The notes under the pieces were generated by a model. That model was not told the origin of the DNA. It saw only the letters and a program-made list of their open reading frames with translations, and did not search any database. Shown piece by piece: positions 19,922 to 50,670 of a DNA stretch of 64,000 nt. Each line of letters opens with the position of its first letter. Position 1 is the first letter of the stretch. A program made the translations under genes and the position numbers. Origin of the DNA: Streptomyces sp. NBC_00536 (GTDB lineage: Bacteria; Actinomycetota; Actinomycetes; Streptomycetales; Streptomycetaceae); NCBI RefSeq assembly GCF_036346295.1, contig NZ_CP107819.1, positions 434,001 through 498,000 on the forward strand, in the 5' to 3' direction.

Positions 19922-20036
19922 CCGCGGGCGCACGCCCGCATCAGACCCCGCACGCCCCCTCGGGACGGGCCGTGCGGACCACCCGTACGCGTGACGCGGC
20001 ACCGGTCCGGGTCCGCGCATGCGGCAGGGTGGGCGG

Positions 20037-20528
20037 ATGCAGCTGCGCCGGGTCCTGCCCCTGTCCCTTGCCGCGTTCCTCCTCGGTGCCGGGTGCACCG
20101 GATGCATGACCGTCGCGCCGTCGGTCCCGGCCGCACCGGCAGCGGACCCCGCGACCGTCCGCACGCACGCCCCGCATCCCGTACTGCCCCTGGGGCGGCT
20201 GCCGGAGGATCCCGCGCAGGCGGCCGCGTCCCCGGTGCCGGCCGCGCCGGCGGCGTCGGCAGCCGCGGCCCCGGCGGACGGGACGGACGGGCAGGAAGGC
20301 CAGGACGGGGAGGGCGCGGACGGCGCCCGGCGCGGGGCGCCGCACCGCTCCGGGAAGGTCCGCGCCCCCGCCCCGGCGAAGGCCCGTACGCCGCGCGCCC
20401 GGCCGCGCCCGCAGACCCGGCCCGGGGCGCCGGGGCGTTCGTATGACATGGCGGCGATCTGCGCGGCGGCCCACGGCACGGTGTCCCCGTCGATCGCCCA
20501 GCTGTGCTCAGACCAGTACGGCCGCTGA
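20037..20528 (+). CDS. Small putative lipoprotein (paralogue of the one at 50.2 kb)
   Basis: A 163-residue protein starting at ATG 20037 (weak site GGGTGGGCGG). The signal sequence MQLRRVLPLSLAAFLLGAGC has a lipobox ending at Cys20. A long disordered Ala/Pro/Thr- and then Arg/Pro-rich stretch follows, ending in a compact C-terminus, DMAAICAAAHGTVSPSIAQL CSDQYGR (split here), with two cysteines 17 residues apart. The gene at 50182 has the same start (MQLRR.(V/L)PLSLA), the same Cys20 and a matching tail (MDDLCTAAEGALPPSVLDLC). Function unknown; likely tethered at the outer membrane face. The paired tail cysteines could form a disulfide. Confidence 0.8.
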   Translation: MQLRRVLPLSLAAFLLGAGCTGCMTVAPSVPAAPAADPATVRTHAPHPVLPLGRLPEDPAQAAASPVPAAPAASAAAAPADGTDGQEGQDGEGADGARRGAPHRSGKVRAPAPAKARTPRARPRPQTRPGAPGRSYDMAAICAAAHGTVSPSIAQLCSDQYGR

Positions 20529-20614: not shown

Positions 20615-22444
20615 ATGCGCACCCACTATCCCCGCACTCCGCACGTCCCGTGGTCCCCCGGGGCCACGCCCGACGACATCCGCGCCGGTGACCTGTCGGG
20701 GCTGCCGGGGCTCGCCGGGCGCGAGGTCGTGGTGACCGAGAAGCTGGACGGCGAGAACACGACCCTCTATGCCGACGGCCTGCACGCGCGCTCCCTGGAC
20801 TCCGCCCACCATCCCTCGCGCGCCTGGGTGAAGGCCCTCCAGGGACGCATCGGCCCGGGGATTCCCGCCGGTTGGCGGATCTGCGGCGAGAACCTCTACG
20901 CACGCCACTCCCTCGCCTACGACGCGCTCGACAGCTGGTTCTACGGCTTCTCCGTCTGGGACGGCGAGCACTGCCTCGACTGGGACCGGACGGTGCGGTT
21001 CCTGACCGGGCTGGGCGTGCCGGTTCCGCGCGTGCTGTGGCGGGGCGTCCTGGACGCCAAGGCCGAGCGCGCGCTGCGCAGGCTGAAGCTGGACACCAAC
21101 CGCCACGAGGGGTACGTCGTGCGCTCCGTGGCGGGCTTCGACCGTGCGGCCTTCGCGCGGCACGTGGCCAAATGGGTGCGCGGGGGTCATGTGCAGACCG
21201 GCACCCACTGGATGTTCGCGTCCGTGGTCGAGAACGGTCTCGGCCCGGCCGCCGCTCTGTGGGCGGTGCGCTCGGGCGCGGCGCCCGATGTCCCGGCCGT
21301 GCTGTCCGCCGCCGGTGTGCCGGACCCCGAGGGCACGGACGGCACGGAGACCCGGACCGCCGCCGAGACCACCGCGGAGACCGTGGCCGATGCCGTCGCC
21401 CGGCTCGACGGGCTGGGGCGGTCGGGGGACGCCCGGCTCGCGGGGGTGCTCGCCGCCGCACTGCACGGCGCGCACCGCGGGCTCCTCGCGCCCCGGCTCG
21501 CGGGGGCGCTCGGGCTGCCGCTCGCGCGCCGGGTGGCCGATCTCGTCGGGCTCCAGGGGCGGCTGCACCGGCCGTTCCCCGAGGAGGAGCGCCGGGCCGG
21601 GCTGGCGGGGATGACGGCCGCCGCCGACCTCGGGGTGCTGCACGCGGTGGCCGGGGCGGTCGCGGGCGCCCGCGCCGACGCGGAGGCGGCCGGGGCGCGC
21701 GAGTGCGTGGAGTGGTCCGCGCTGTGCGCCGAGGAGGCGGGGCTGCTCGACGCGGAGCCGTACGGCCCGCTGCGTTCGGGGCTGCGGGAGGCGCTGGCCG
21801 GGCTCGGCACGGAGGCCGCGGACCGGTGCTGGGCGCAGGCGCGCCGGGCCTGGGCCGAGGGCCGGGTCGGCGGGGTCGAGGAGGCGGTGGCGGCGACCTG
21901 GCGGTGGCGCGGCGGGGAGTTCCCGCGGCTGATCCAGCTGGTCGGGCCCTCGGGCAGCGGGAAGAGCACCTTCGGCCGGGCACTGGCCGGGGTGGACGCG
22001 TACGTCTCGCTGGACGACCTGCGCTCCGCGCGCGGCGCGCGTGCGGACCAGCGGGCCAACGGCGAGGTGCTGCGGGAGGGGCTGGACCGGCTCGACGCGG
22101 CGCTCGCGGCCGGGGGCACGGTGGTGTGGGACGCCACCTCGCTGGTGGCCCCGCAGCGCGCCCTGGTCGGGGCGGTCGCCCAGCGGCGTGACGCGCTGGT
22201 GACGCAGGCCGTCGTACTGGCCGACGAGGACACGCTGCGGCGGCGCAACGGCACCCGCGCGCACCCGGTGCCGGACGCCGTGCTGGACTCCCAGCTGCGC
22301 CGGTACAGTCCGCCGTATCCCGGTCAGGCGCACCGGACCTGGTACATCGGGGCGGGCGGCACGGTCGAGGACACGGCGGGAGGCCTGCGGTGCGACGCCA
22401 CCGGCCACGGCCACCAGGGCGGCCACGAGGGCGGGACGGCGTGA
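20615..22444 (+). CDS. RNA ligase fused to polynucleotide 5'-kinase
   Basis: A 609-residue bifunctional RNA repair enzyme. ATG 20615 follows GGAGCGG. The N-terminal nucleotidyltransferase has motif I TEKLDGEN with the adenylated Lys43, motif III ICGEN (Glu92), IIIa FYGFSVWD, IV HEGYVVR (Glu165) and V AKWVR (Lys186), the pattern of Rnl2-like RNA ligases. Residues 210-430 are an Ala/Arg-rich helical region of unknown role. The C-terminal P-loop kinase has GPSGSGKST (444-452), the SLDDLR motif (Asp467, matching the T4 Pnkp general base and its Arg), VVWDATSL, and a lid with RRRNGTR. It should phosphorylate RNA 5' ends and seal them to 3'-OH ends. The stop overlaps the next start (TGATG). Confidence 0.93.
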   Translation: MRTHYPRTPHVPWSPGATPDDIRAGDLSGLPGLAGREVVVTEKLDGENTTLYADGLHARSLDSAHHPSRAWVKALQGRIGPGIPAGWRICGENLYARHSLAYDALDSWFYGFSVWDGEHCLDWDRTVRFLTGLGVPVPRVLWRGVLDAKAERALRRLKLDTNRHEGYVVRSVAGFDRAAFARHVAKWVRGGHVQTGTHWMFASVVENGLGPAAALWAVRSGAAPDVPAVLSAAGVPDPEGTDGTETRTAAETTAETVADAVARLDGLGRSGDARLAGVLAAALHGAHRGLLAPRLAGALGLPLARRVADLVGLQGRLHRPFPEEERRAGLAGMTAAADLGVLHAVAGAVAGARADAEAAGARECVEWSALCAEEAGLLDAEPYGPLRSGLREALAGLGTEAADRCWAQARRAWAEGRVGGVEEAVAATWRWRGGEFPRLIQLVGPSGSGKSTFGRALAGVDAYVSLDDLRSARGARADQRANGEVLREGLDRLDAALAAGGTVVWDATSLVAPQRALVGAVAQRRDALVTQAVVLADEDTLRRRNGTRAHPVPDAVLDSQLRRYSPPYPGQAHRTWYIGAGGTVEDTAGGLRCDATGHGHQGGHEGGTA

Positions 22445-25380
22445 TGCGGACCAGTGAAGAGCTGTACCACCAGGTCCGCTGGGACCCCCGGTTCGATCCG
22501 GCCCGGTTCGTGCTGGGGCTGCTCCAGCGCGGGGCCGCGCCCAAGCGCGTCGCGCTGCCCTCGTTCGTGCCGGGCGGTGACGTGCCCTGGCACCGGGTGC
22601 TGTTCGTCGAGGCGGACGGCGAGCTGGTGTGGGACCGGGCCACCGGCGTGGACCGGGTCGAGTCCTCGGGTGCCGGGCGGGCGCGCGCCCCCCGGCTGCT
22701 TCGCGCGCCGTTCTTCACGGCGCGCACGGCGCACTCCTGGGATCCGGCGCGGGGCTGGGTCCCGGCCGTGGACGACGCGCGCCCCGGGCGCCCCGCGCAC
22801 GCCGTACCCACGACGGCCGCGACGGCGGCGGTGGTGCGCGTGCTCACCTGGAACACGCTGTGGGACCGCTACGACGGCCCGCTCATCGAGACCGCGCGGC
22901 GGCGCCCGCTGCTGCTCGCCGGGCTGGCGGCGGCCGACGCCGACGTGATCGCCCTCCAGGAGGTCGAGCGGCCGCTGCTCGACCTGATCCTCGCCGAGCC
23001 CTGGGTACGGTCCTCCTACACGGTGGGCACCTCGCCGGGCGGCCGGGACGTGGCCGACACCGGACTGCTGCTGCTCAGCCGGCTTCCCGTGCGGGAGGCG
23101 GGAGTTCACGCCCTGGGGCCGCACAAGGGGGTCACCGCCCTCACGGTGGAGACGGCCGCGGGTCCGCTCGTGGTGGCCGCCACCCATCTCAGCAGCGACC
23201 ACTCGGCGGACGGCGCGGGGCGGCGGACGGCCGAACTGGCCCGGCTCACCGATGGGTTGGCCGGGATCGACGGCGAGGTCGTGCTGATGGGCGACTTCAA
23301 CGACGGGCGCGGGGGCGCCGGGGGTCCTGCCGCGGTGCTGGGCCTGCGGGACGCGTGGGCCGACGTCCACGGGGAGGGGGACACCACCCCGACCTTCGAT
23401 CCGGCGGTCAATCCGCTGGCCGCCGTGGGCTCGCTGACCGGGCGCGCCGCCCGGCTGGACCGGATCCTGCTGCGGGGGCGGGCCCGGGTGGCCCGGGCGG
23501 CGCTGATCGGGGACCGTCCCGCCACCGCCGACGGGCTGTTCGTATCGGACCACTTCGGGGTGGAGGCGGAGCTGGACCTCGGCGCGCCCGGGACCGCGGC
23601 CGCCCTGAGCGACGTACCGGAGGCGGCGGACGGACCGGACGCCCTCGACCTGGCACCGACGGCGCGCACCGCCGTGGCCTGGATCCCGCCCGGCGAGTGG
23701 TGGCCGGCCGTCCAGGAGCTGCGCCGGAACCTCGACCCGCGGGTGGACCGCTGGCCGCCGCACGTGAACCTGCTGTTCGGGTTCGTACCCGAGTCCGTCT
23801 TCGAGCGGGCCGCCGAGCTGCTGGCCGGGGCCGCCGCCGAGGTGCCCGCCTTCACGGCGCGGCCGGGCGGGGTGCACACCTTCGGGCACCGCGAGGACGC
23901 GACGCTGTGGCTGGACCCGGCGGCGGACGGCGAGGCGCCGTGGCAGGAGCTGCGGGCGGCGCTGGTCCGCCGGTTCCCCGGGTGCCGGGGGCGCGCCGAT
24001 GGCTTCACCCCGCACCTGACACTGGGCCGGAGTACGGACCCCGAGCGCGCGGCGGCCCGGTGCGCGGCCGCGCTCGCCGGGGCCCCGGAGGCCATGGAAC
24101 CGGCCCCGGTCGGGTCGCTCGCCGTGCTGTCCCGGCGCGGCGGGGAACCGATGCGGGTGCGGTTCACCGTGGCGCTGGGGACGGGCGAGGTCCGGTGGCT
24201 GCCGGAGGCCCGGGAGGAGGGCACCCCGGGGCCGCCGGACGGGGATCTGGACGACCTGGCGCGGTCCGTCACCGGGCGGCTGGCGCGGGCGCTGCCCGAG
24301 GGGGTCGTGGAGGTCGCCGGATCGCGCCGGATGGGGTGCGCGCTGCCCGGGGCCGACCTGGACCTGGTCGCGGCGCTGGCGGGACCGGTGGACCCCGCGC
24401 GGCTGCGCGAGCGGGTGGTGGCCGCGCTCCCGGAGGCGGTCCGGGTCCGGGAGGTGCGCGGCGCCCGGGTCCCCGGACTGCGGCTGCGGGTCGGCGCGTT
24501 GGACGTGGACCTCGCCGTCGTGGCGAGCGCGGGGGTCGATCCCGGGCAGGCGGTGGCCCGGCGGACCGAGCTGGGCGGGGGTGCGGCGCTCGCGCTGAGC
24601 GCGGTGAGCGACGCCGAGGCGGTACGGGCGGCCGTGGCGCCCGAGCGGCGCGCCGCGTTCGCGGAGCTGGCCCGGCGGGTCAAGGAATGGGCACGGGCCC
24701 GGGGGCTGGACTCCGCCCCGTTCGGCGGGCTGCCCGGGCTGGCCTGGTCGGTGCTCGCCGCGCGCACGGTGGGCGGCGCGGGCGCGGCGGAGCTGTCGCA
24801 TGACGCGCTGCTGCGGGAGTTCTTCGGCCACTGGGCGGCCTGGGACTGGCGCCTGCCGGTGGCCCTGTGGGACGGGGAGGACGCGCTTCGCGCGGGGGAG
24901 GCGCCGGTGACGGTGCTGACCCCGTCCGCGCCGGTGCGTACGTGTACGGCCCAGGTGGGGGCGGGGTTCCGTGACCTGCTGGTGCGGGAGCTGTACCGGG
25001 GCTGGGAGATCACCGGGAGCGGCGTCGGGCCCTGGCCCGCCCTGCTCGGCCCGCCGCCGCTGCACCGGCGGCACGCGGCCTGGGCGCAGGTCACCGTCCG
25101 CGCGGAGCGCGCTCCGCGGGCCGGGGCGGCGCCGGGCCGGGTCCGCGGCCGGATGCGGGCGCTGCTCACCGCGCTGGAGGAGGCGGGGGCGGTGGACGCG
25201 CACGCCTGGCCGCGCCCCTTCGCCGCGGAGCCGGGGAGCACCCGGTACGCGATCGGGCTGGGCGCGGCCCCGCCGGACGCGGCGCGGCTCGCGGTGATCG
25301 CCGGGCGGTGGGCCGCGGGGCTGCCGGGCGTGGAGGTGTCCTGGGTGGCGGGCGGGGACGTACCGAGCCCGGCCCCGTAG
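22444..25380 (+). CDS. Four-domain RNA repair protein: MJ1316-EEP-2H-nucleotidyltransferase
   Basis: A 978-residue protein, translationally coupled to the ligase-kinase. Domain 1 (1-80) is MJ1316/DUF504, with VPWHRVLFVEADGELVWDR; it is predicted in the literature to recognise cyclic-phosphate RNA ends. Domain 2 (about 130-378) is an endonuclease/exonuclease/phosphatase fold with WNTLW (Asn138), LQEVE (Glu173), THLS (His248), GDFND (284-288) and SDH (368-370). Domain 3 (about 410-580) is a 2H (LigT-like) phosphoesterase with paired HVN (440) and HLT (524), which opens 2',3'-cyclic phosphates. Domain 4 (about 600-978) is a CCA/poly(A)-polymerase-type nucleotidyltransferase with GS (626), ADLDL (638/640) and a third Asp near 687-689. 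With its partner it provides end recognition, end healing, nucleotide addition and sealing. Confidence 0.93.
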   Translation: MRTSEELYHQVRWDPRFDPARFVLGLLQRGAAPKRVALPSFVPGGDVPWHRVLFVEADGELVWDRATGVDRVESSGAGRARAPRLLRAPFFTARTAHSWDPARGWVPAVDDARPGRPAHAVPTTAATAAVVRVLTWNTLWDRYDGPLIETARRRPLLLAGLAAADADVIALQEVERPLLDLILAEPWVRSSYTVGTSPGGRDVADTGLLLLSRLPVREAGVHALGPHKGVTALTVETAAGPLVVAATHLSSDHSADGAGRRTAELARLTDGLAGIDGEVVLMGDFNDGRGGAGGPAAVLGLRDAWADVHGEGDTTPTFDPAVNPLAAVGSLTGRAARLDRILLRGRARVARAALIGDRPATADGLFVSDHFGVEAELDLGAPGTAAALSDVPEAADGPDALDLAPTARTAVAWIPPGEWWPAVQELRRNLDPRVDRWPPHVNLLFGFVPESVFERAAELLAGAAAEVPAFTARPGGVHTFGHREDATLWLDPAADGEAPWQELRAALVRRFPGCRGRADGFTPHLTLGRSTDPERAAARCAAALAGAPEAMEPAPVGSLAVLSRRGGEPMRVRFTVALGTGEVRWLPEAREEGTPGPPDGDLDDLARSVTGRLARALPEGVVEVAGSRRMGCALPGADLDLVAALAGPVDPARLRERVVAALPEAVRVREVRGARVPGLRLRVGALDVDLAVVASAGVDPGQAVARRTELGGGAALALSAVSDAEAVRAAVAPERRAAFAELARRVKEWARARGLDSAPFGGLPGLAWSVLAARTVGGAGAAELSHDALLREFFGHWAAWDWRLPVALWDGEDALRAGEAPVTVLTPSAPVRTCTAQVGAGFRDLLVRELYRGWEITGSGVGPWPALLGPPPLHRRHAAWAQVTVRAERAPRAGAAPGRVRGRMRALLTALEEAGAVDAHAWPRPFAAEPGSTRYAIGLGAAPPDAARLAVIAGRWAAGLPGVEVSWVAGGDVPSPAP

Positions 25381-50092: not shown

Positions 50093-50181
50093 CGGGAGCG
50101 CGAGCGTGATGACCAGCGGGCGTCACCCGTAAGCGGTACGGGACTCCGTCGTGCGGGCCGCGCATGGGGCATGGTGGAGGG

Positions 50182-50670
50182 ATGCAGTTGCGCCGGGCCG
50201 TTCCCCTGTCCCTCGCCGTGCTCCTCGCGAGCGCCGGATGCGGCTCCGTCGGTGACGGCGCCCCTGCTCCGGCCCCCGCCCGTCCCACCGTTCCGGCCGC
50301 CGATTCCCCCGCGCCGCCTCCGCTCGGCAGGCCCAACGGGCCGATGCGTGCCGGTACGCCCTCGGGCCCGCTGTTCGTGGAGAGCGACCCGGCGCCGGCC
50401 GTCCGGCCCGGCCCCGGCACCGACGCGTCCCCGCCCGCACCCGCACCCGCGGCCGGGGAATCGCGCCGGACCGGCGAGCGCGCCATGACGCCGTCGGCGC
50501 CCCGGCGGACCGCCCCCCGCAAGCCCGCGCCGTCGCACCCGCGCCGGTACGCGGCCCCGCCGCCCGCGCGGCTGCCCGCGCAGCCGGAGATGGACGACCT
50601 GTGCACGGCCGCCGAGGGCGCCCTCCCGCCGTCGGTCCTGGACCTGTGCGTGGGCCGGTCCGGCGGCTGA
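50182..50670 (+). CDS. Small putative lipoprotein (paralogue of the one at 20.0 kb)
   Basis: A 162-residue protein. ATG 50182 follows TGGAGGG directly. The signal sequence MQLRRAVPLSLAVLLASAGC has Cys20 as lipid acceptor, the same length as in the gene at 20037, and the DNA around the start is also similar. The middle is disordered (Pro/Ala/Asp/Arg-rich) with no homology, and the end carries MDDLCTAAEGALPPSVLDLC, matching the other copy's Cys-x17-Cys tail. The mirror-like conservation of both ends and divergence of the middle suggests a lipoprotein whose tail does the work. Function unknown. Confidence 0.8.
   Translation: MQLRRAVPLSLAVLLASAGCGSVGDGAPAPAPARPTVPAADSPAPPPLGRPNGPMRAGTPSGPLFVESDPAPAVRPGPGTDASPPAPAPAAGESRRTGERAMTPSAPRRTAPRKPAPSHPRRYAAPPPARLPAQPEMDDLCTAAEGALPPSVLDLCVGRSGG

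Follow-up and report, generated by a model that had tools for sequence, protein, structure and literature searches.

RNA-repair systems of the ATP-grasp kind were reportedly surveyed by Burroughs and Aravind in 2016, in a study that is said to discuss the MJ1316 domain; such systems unite a ligase, end-healing enzymes and a nucleotidyltransferase, with MJ1316 assigned to cyclic ends, and the locus described here resembles them in these respects. The survey is cited in PMC6514570 (excerpt). In yeast and plant tRNA ligases, 2H chemistry converts a 2',3'-cyclic phosphate to a 2'-phosphate (PMC3400036, excerpt). A repair scheme for jumbo phages comprises a 2H enzyme, a phosphatase mostly of the HAD type, a kinase and a ligase, together with a nucleotidyltransferase whose predicted task is to replace missing nucleotides (PMC7824862, excerpt). 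The present locus shares with Trl1/AtRNL and Tpt1 a ligase and P-loop kinase in one chain, a 2H cyclic phosphodiesterase and a 2'-phosphotransferase homologue of Tpt1 (KptA) encoded elsewhere in the genome. Unlike Trl1/AtRNL, it carries 2H on a separate polypeptide, alongside MJ1316, EEP and poly(A) polymerase domains, and its kinase is nearest to bacterial Pnkp. The kinase domain is shared, by sequence and by fold, with the bacterial Pnkp/Rnl/Hen1 system (CthPnkp, Pnkp1), whereas a calcineurin, HAD or methylase domain was found in neither protein by Pfam. The kind is already known and annotated, with relatives labelled 'RNA repair domain-containing protein' and 'poly(A) polymerase'. Among systems of this known kind, the locus stands out by one unexpected part, and its nuclear-type polymerase and the natural dissection of its domains pose good, testable questions.

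The operon was found in a 64,000-nucleotide window of high-GC DNA from Streptomyces sp. NBC_00536 (positions 434001-498000 of an 8.66-Mb contig; genome, 9.15 Mb). Its two genes follow one another on the same strand and share a single base (Table 1). A preliminary description of this DNA had given coordinates and a coupled two-gene operon that proved exact; the motifs it named are present in the sequence, and its domains were recovered as six Pfam matches above the curated cut-offs across both proteins. The order was RNA ligase, helical segment and P-loop kinase in protein 1, and MJ1316, EEP, 2H and a poly(A)-polymerase-type nucleotidyltransferase in protein 2, for which a mechanical ORF list offers an alternative start, an in-frame GTG at 22390. 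The dN/dS ratio was approximately 0.28-0.38 for both genes (NG86, against three relatives), which points to purifying selection, and the nearest named relatives of each protein were from Streptomyces. The operon is real, intact and conserved.

The earlier statement that no toxin gene adjoins the operon agrees with a Pfam scan of five neighbours, which were acyltransferase-like, F5/8 type C, DUF1996, glycosidase-like and bestrophin-like. A PADLOC defence search returned mad3 as its sole match (E 2.5e-4, over 39 residues at the P-loop). Two small lipoprotein-like genes of the window, one just upstream of the operon (20019-20528) and the other at 50164-50670, form a similar pair when compared by eye; a family resembling the former, again by eye, occurs in 10 of the 80 related loci described below.

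Table 1. Features of the operon, with positions in the window.
Feature	Position	Strand	Basis
Protein 1 gene	20615-22444	+	ORF, 609 aa
RNA ligase domain, residues 1-209	20615..21241	+	PF09414 RNA_ligase, E 6.8e-33
All-helical segment between ligase and kinase, residues 210-430	21242..21904	+	AlphaFold model
Pnkp-type polynucleotide 5'-kinase domain, residues 435-590	21917..22384	+	AAA_33 PF13671, E 1.8e-21
TGATG stop/start overlap joining the two genes	22442..22446	+	Sequence
Protein 2 gene	22444-25380	+	ATG start, 978 aa
MJ1316 (DUF504) domain, residues 1-65, predicted RNA cyclic-end recognition	22444..22638	+	PF04457, E 8e-17
EEP phosphoesterase domain, residues 128-381	22825..23586	+	PF03372, E 8.9e-18
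2H phosphoesterase domain, residues 402-590	23647..24213	+	PF13563, E 4.5e-34
Nuclear-type poly(A) polymerase domain, residues 593-974	24220..25365	+	PAP_central PF04928, E 4.5e-07

Protein 1 was aligned from the window and the 70 copies in related loci that were long enough (n = 71). Its ligase domain has the KxDG nucleophile and the nucleotidyltransferase motifs of an ATP-grasp (PF09414) ligase, namely K43 in KLDG, GEN (91-93), EGYVVR (165-170) and KW (186-187). K43 was present in 70 of the 71 copies, with a gap in the other, and E92, E165 and K186 in all. The ligase part gave no PDB sequence match at E ≤ 0.1 and matched phrog_34045 at E 1.6e-65. The helical segment, in which no Pfam match was found, comprises 12 helices of at least four residues in the AlphaFold model, with a block of pLDDT ≥ 89 over residues 251-430. 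The matches listed in the fold comparison of protein 1 span residues 433-606 only. The ligase part of the model is weak. The kinase domain has a P-loop (444-452), the catalytic D467 and R470 and the Pnkp fold, as judged by sequence and fold comparison; K450, D467 and R470 were unvarying in the 71 copies.

The ligase domain also resembles phage minimal RNA ligases, many of them from jumbo phages (XacN1, CcrBL9 and IMG/VR contigs), with identities of up to 55% in 35 viral contigs and of 28-51% in 32 phage records. The viral ligases differ in lacking the helical segment: 34 of the 35 ORFs end at most 30 residues past the ligase match, and L124 ends after 86. Since this C-terminal extension never exceeds 86 residues, it leaves no room for a kinase. 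An N-terminal part of 130-149 residues was seen in 15 of the 35 viral relatives (e.g., L104, L111 and L124), and in the three that were scanned (L104, L124 and L139) this part gave no Pfam match, to a kinase or otherwise. In a ligase tree, which leaves out L063 and L134 because their matches are too short, the bacterial ligase domains, 19 in all with that of the window and those of 18 loci, formed one group (92/89, not starred, the bootstrap not being settled); the root is unsure, and the direction of transfer between phages and bacteria is therefore left open. A pattern-limited scan for viral copies of protein 2 gave 16 stretches that fit a pattern, none of them a relative.

Protein 2 was aligned from the window and the best 80 of 227 related loci (n = 81). 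W13, R21, R35, W49, H50 and R51 of the MJ1316 domain, which has low pLDDT in the model, were unvarying in all 81 copies, as were all eight EEP residues considered (N137, E173, H248, D284, N286, D339, D369 and H370), so that the metal and catalytic residues N, E, H, D-N, D and D-H of an EEP phosphoesterase are in place. The nearest solved relative of the EEP domain in a PDB profile search was TDP2 (E 6.5e-12). ANGEL2, which also has the EEP fold, matched a short stretch at E 0.036 and was absent among the 50 fold matches listed. As the profile favours TDP2 by more than nine orders of magnitude, homology to ANGEL2 is not favoured, and ANGEL2 is kept as a functional analogy only. PDE12 matched the domain weakly (E 0.08-0.1).

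The 2H domain carries the expected two HxTx-type motifs, HVNL (440-443) and HLTL (524-527), and H440 and H524 were found in all 81 copies; the first motif reads HxN in 77 and HxT in four, and the second reads HxT in 57 and HxS in 24. It matches PDB 2d4g (BSU11850, which we take to be YjcG) at E 8.2e-6. A stand-alone 2H protein, 55% identical to this domain, is encoded elsewhere on the window's own chromosome (L140:7117-7746; C1:8419143-8419724). Mutation of all catalytic residues in close homologues, which the preliminary description had named as an argument against its assignments, was not seen: apart from the gap at K43, the ligase, kinase, EEP and 2H sites were kept in the 71 and 81 copies of the respective proteins. 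The structure-based search it had proposed led from the EEP domain to TDP2 and from the nucleotidyltransferase to nuclear poly(A) polymerases.

This last domain had been described as a poly(A)/CCA-type nucleotidyltransferase. The nucleotidyltransferase stands, and PDB profile and fold comparison correct its type to that of the canonical nuclear poly(A) polymerase. All parts of such an enzyme are present: a palm with G626 S627 and the three carboxylates D638, D640 and D689, a central domain with K747, and a C-terminal part that is read as the RRM-like end of nuclear poly(A) polymerases. D638 and D689 were unvarying in the 81 copies, and D640 varied once. The domain aligns with PAPOLG, Pap1 and Pla1 over 373 residues, metal carboxylates included, and has the stretch VKxWAxxRG...G.LpG..W in common with them. 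It differs from them in that identity is approximately 20% in fold alignments and in that the bacterial domain is fused behind three RNA-end domains. Neither Pfam and NCBIfam (E ≤ 1) nor the search of PDB profiles (E ≤ 0.1) listed a match to PcnB or CCA-adding enzymes, and a bacterial CdnC matched the domain weakly (E 0.0014).

We consider that the operon probably encodes a host healing-and-sealing RNA-repair system acting on cut RNA, with a rough probability of 0.6. This reading builds on six domains whose active sites are intact, a gene coupling that is conserved, a polymerase akin to nuclear enzymes, and relatives that have lost some of the modules. Metal-independent ribonucleases leave a 2',3'-cyclic phosphate and a 5'-OH, and MJ1316 would dock protein 2 on the cyclic end. 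The 2H domain would then open this end to a 2'-phosphate, which the EEP domain would take off; alternatively, the EEP domain would perform both opening and phosphate removal, as does ANGEL2, which converts a cyclic phosphate to a 2'-phosphate and then to plain hydroxyls (PMC13247085, excerpt). The polymerase domain may re-add nucleotides lost at the 3' fragment end or at the 3' end of tRNA, which is the most likely substrate. From family chemistry, the kinase of protein 1 would phosphorylate the 5'-OH and the ligase would seal the ends through a K43-AMP intermediate.

Within the operon, the EEP domain is the sole candidate phosphatase and the polymerase domain the sole candidate for nucleotide restoration. 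The preliminary description had stated that every step of repair is encoded. The coupled operon, the six domains with intact catalytic residues and the RNA-repair anatomy are supported, but a complete set of steps is not established: Pfam (E ≤ 1) shows in neither protein the HAD or calcineurin 3'-phosphatase of a bifunctional Pnkp. Phosphate removal therefore rests on the TDP2-like EEP domain or on the chromosomal KptA/Tpt1, and because the EEP domain is nearer to TDP2 than to ANGEL2, its role in this step is a guess from need and not from family. The host also has another way to seal RNA, as RtcB is encoded in the window's genome. No paper on the biochemistry of this protein pair was found among the papers listed from the literature searched, which largely leaves out subscription papers.

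Protein searches (E ≤ 0.001, approximately 8000 candidates each) gave at least 1275 relatives of protein 2 and at least 1498 of protein 1. MJ1316, EEP, 2H and PAP_central were present in all 120 protein 2 relatives listed, the window's own included. The best 80 of the 227 places found in a scan of named bacterial genomes for protein 2 came from Streptomyces, Kitasatospora, Nonomuraea, Planomonospora, Streptosporangium, Dactylosporangium, Plantactinospora and other genera. A ligase match lay directly upstream of protein 2 in 78 of these 80 loci, the exceptions being L042 and L089; seven of the 78 ligases are cut by a contig end, and that of L063 is a kinase end only. The two genes overlapped by 1 nt in 46 of the 78 loci, and their spacing was between -14 and +7 nt in 77.

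In a phylum sample of 296 genomes, strong protein 2 matches occurred in two, both of the window's genus, and a third, weaker match (E 2e-4) is confined to a portion of the 2H domain. Prevalence within the genus was gauged by an MJ1316 family search beside ligase matches in 199 genomes. A close ligase match (E below 1e-70; partial or in pieces in eight genomes) was found in 40, MJ1316 in 55 and both in 39, which places the operon in approximately one-fifth of the genomes. The MJ1316 site lay at most 400 nt behind the ligase in each of these 39, and the fortieth ligase genome (G344) is 82% complete, with its ligase match at a contig end. MJ1316 occurred in 16 of the 159 genomes without a close ligase match; the resulting Fisher p of 2.6e-27 overstates the association because species are not independent. 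In G307, the ligase gene is split between C1:8841893-8842948 and C1:6010883-6011737 of one contig, as if a rearrangement had broken inside it.

A plasmid search with protein 2 gave eight records, of which three cover most of the query, all on replicons of 3.1-11.9 Mb. The four-domain protein is also present on a conjugative Calothrix plasmid of 208 kb, the single cyanobacterial context read; no RNA ligase was found on the whole of this plasmid, which was counted against the repair model. A search with the polymerase domain of the Calothrix protein gave 137 relatives, and approximately 40 of the 120 listed are named, with names that are apparently cyanobacterial.

The 199 genomes of the genus contain 17 MJ1316 sites away from a ligase. 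Fifteen of these are short proteins of 268-315 aa that consist of MJ1316 and 2H and retain both 2H motifs, and the joint of the MJ1316-2H protein L145 holds an apparent stump of an EEP domain. L151 is a piece of 402 residues that comprises MJ1316 and an EEP domain in which the EEP residues are altered, and L144, also among the 17, is a full-length protein 2. Two more MJ1316-2H proteins are encoded on Streptomyces linear plasmids. Sixteen sites were checked in each of 82 proteins, L144 included, and 80 keep all of them. A polymerase carboxylate was changed only in L042 (D640N) and L144 (D640N and D689G), with EEP and 2H residues intact in both. No ligase was found in the flanks of L042, nor a close ligase match in the whole genome of L144. 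The polymerase is linked to the ligase by the alteration of its site in these ligase-less loci, where EEP and 2H stay intact; the two loci have almost the same DNA upstream, so they possibly represent one event, and L089, which has no ligase in its flanks and yet keeps all sixteen sites, counts against this link.

MJ1316-EEP-polymerase proteins without 2H made up nine of the 120 listed relatives of the Calothrix protein, the only one of the nine that is named being from a cyanobacterium. This count leaves out P0284 and P0298, which are without MJ1316, and relatives starting inside the 2H or EEP domain (P0268, P0273, P0282, P0288, P0291, P0299, P0300 and P0345) were read as cut gene models. To judge from these variants, not every system requires 2H, EEP and polymerase side by side. 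From this we infer a joint action of polymerase and ligase, a separate use for MJ1316-2H, and an ability of either EEP or 2H to serve in the 3'-end step.

The variants without 2H also bear on a rather unlikely alternative, in which the 2H domain leaves a 2'-phosphate and 3'-OH, the ends are ligated with this 2'-phosphate still in place, chromosomal KptA takes it off afterwards and the EEP domain has another task, such as cleaning blocked 5' ends like TDP2, its nearest relative. The tRNA ligases of yeast and plants are composed of three such parts, a ligase, a kinase and 2H, and their product bears a 2'-phosphate (PMC3400036, excerpt). KptA is encoded in the window's genome and in all nine genomes of the genus in the phylum sample. 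However, only two of these nine have the operon, and a linkage between KptA and the operon was rejected because KptA is equally present without it; moreover, EEP is kept where 2H is absent in the nine Calothrix-protein relatives.

It is still less probable that the polymerase domain tails unmendable RNA and so marks it for 3' decay instead of replacing lost nucleotides, as its nuclear poly(A) type and the promotion of decay by tails in bacteria (PMC5872136, excerpt) might suggest. The decay of the polymerase site in the two ligase-less loci, possibly one event, favours a role in ligation. It is highly improbable that EEP, 2H and a polymerase-beta-type enzyme make and break 2',5'-oligoadenylate-like signals, with the ligase gene as a bystander: 2H and EEP enzymes degrade 2-5A in animals, and PDE12 and CdnC match weakly, but the 373-residue alignment with nuclear poly(A) polymerases speaks against this, and it leaves no place for MJ1316 or the tight coupling to a ligase-kinase.

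Under the healing-and-sealing reading, the operon is well suited to studying how bacteria repair cut RNA, and one of its parts is a polymerase of a type otherwise typical of animal and yeast nuclei. The two proteins could allow the full route to be rebuilt and its steps ordered, and they bear on which enzyme takes off the 2'-phosphate in systems that lack a fused Pnkp phosphatase. Streptomyces is described as lacking PAP I, with PNPase taken as the tailing enzyme on evidence called indirect (PMC5872136, excerpt). PNPase is also named as the likely tailing enzyme of S. coelicolor and cyanobacteria, and a horizontally gained pcnB is reported in one S. cavourensis strain (PMC8208693, excerpt). 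The excerpts of both papers make no mention of a nuclear-type poly(A) polymerase, and the word 'eukaryotic' is absent from that of PMC8208693. The present analysis places such a domain in both groups, which makes the source of nucleotide addition at their RNA 3' ends directly testable. We tentatively suggest that multicellular bacteria (streptomycetes, other actinomycetes and filamentous cyanobacteria) hold a nuclear-type poly(A) polymerase in an RNA-repair enzyme, where it would restore nucleotides at cut RNA ends before sealing and provide 3' nucleotide addition independent of PNPase in two groups whose tails are attributed to PNPase. The eukaryotic mRNA poly(A) polymerase may have been recruited from a repair role that this enzyme still keeps; alternatively, the bacterial domain may be a capture from eukaryotes.

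Neighbour families were compiled from GC3-filtered ORFs of at least 90 aa in flanks of up to 7 kb, some flanks being shorter. A constant third gene was rejected, as the commonest family, an oxidoreductase by reading of its sequence, occurred in 26 of the 80 loci and the others in at most 11. Genes named by sequence reading include ribosomal-protein genes of the S10 kind upstream of the operon in 11 loci and a tuf-like gene downstream in eight; L044:330-4764 and L054:14062-16729 represent these families. A regulator-like family, presumably of the HTH/WYL type (e.g., L026:3393-4418), lay near the operon in seven loci. A second RNA ligase family was found near the operon in nine of the 80 loci; its member in L021 (L021:11046-12122), which bears an OB fold at the N-terminus (PF21189 and PF09414), lies downstream on the other strand.
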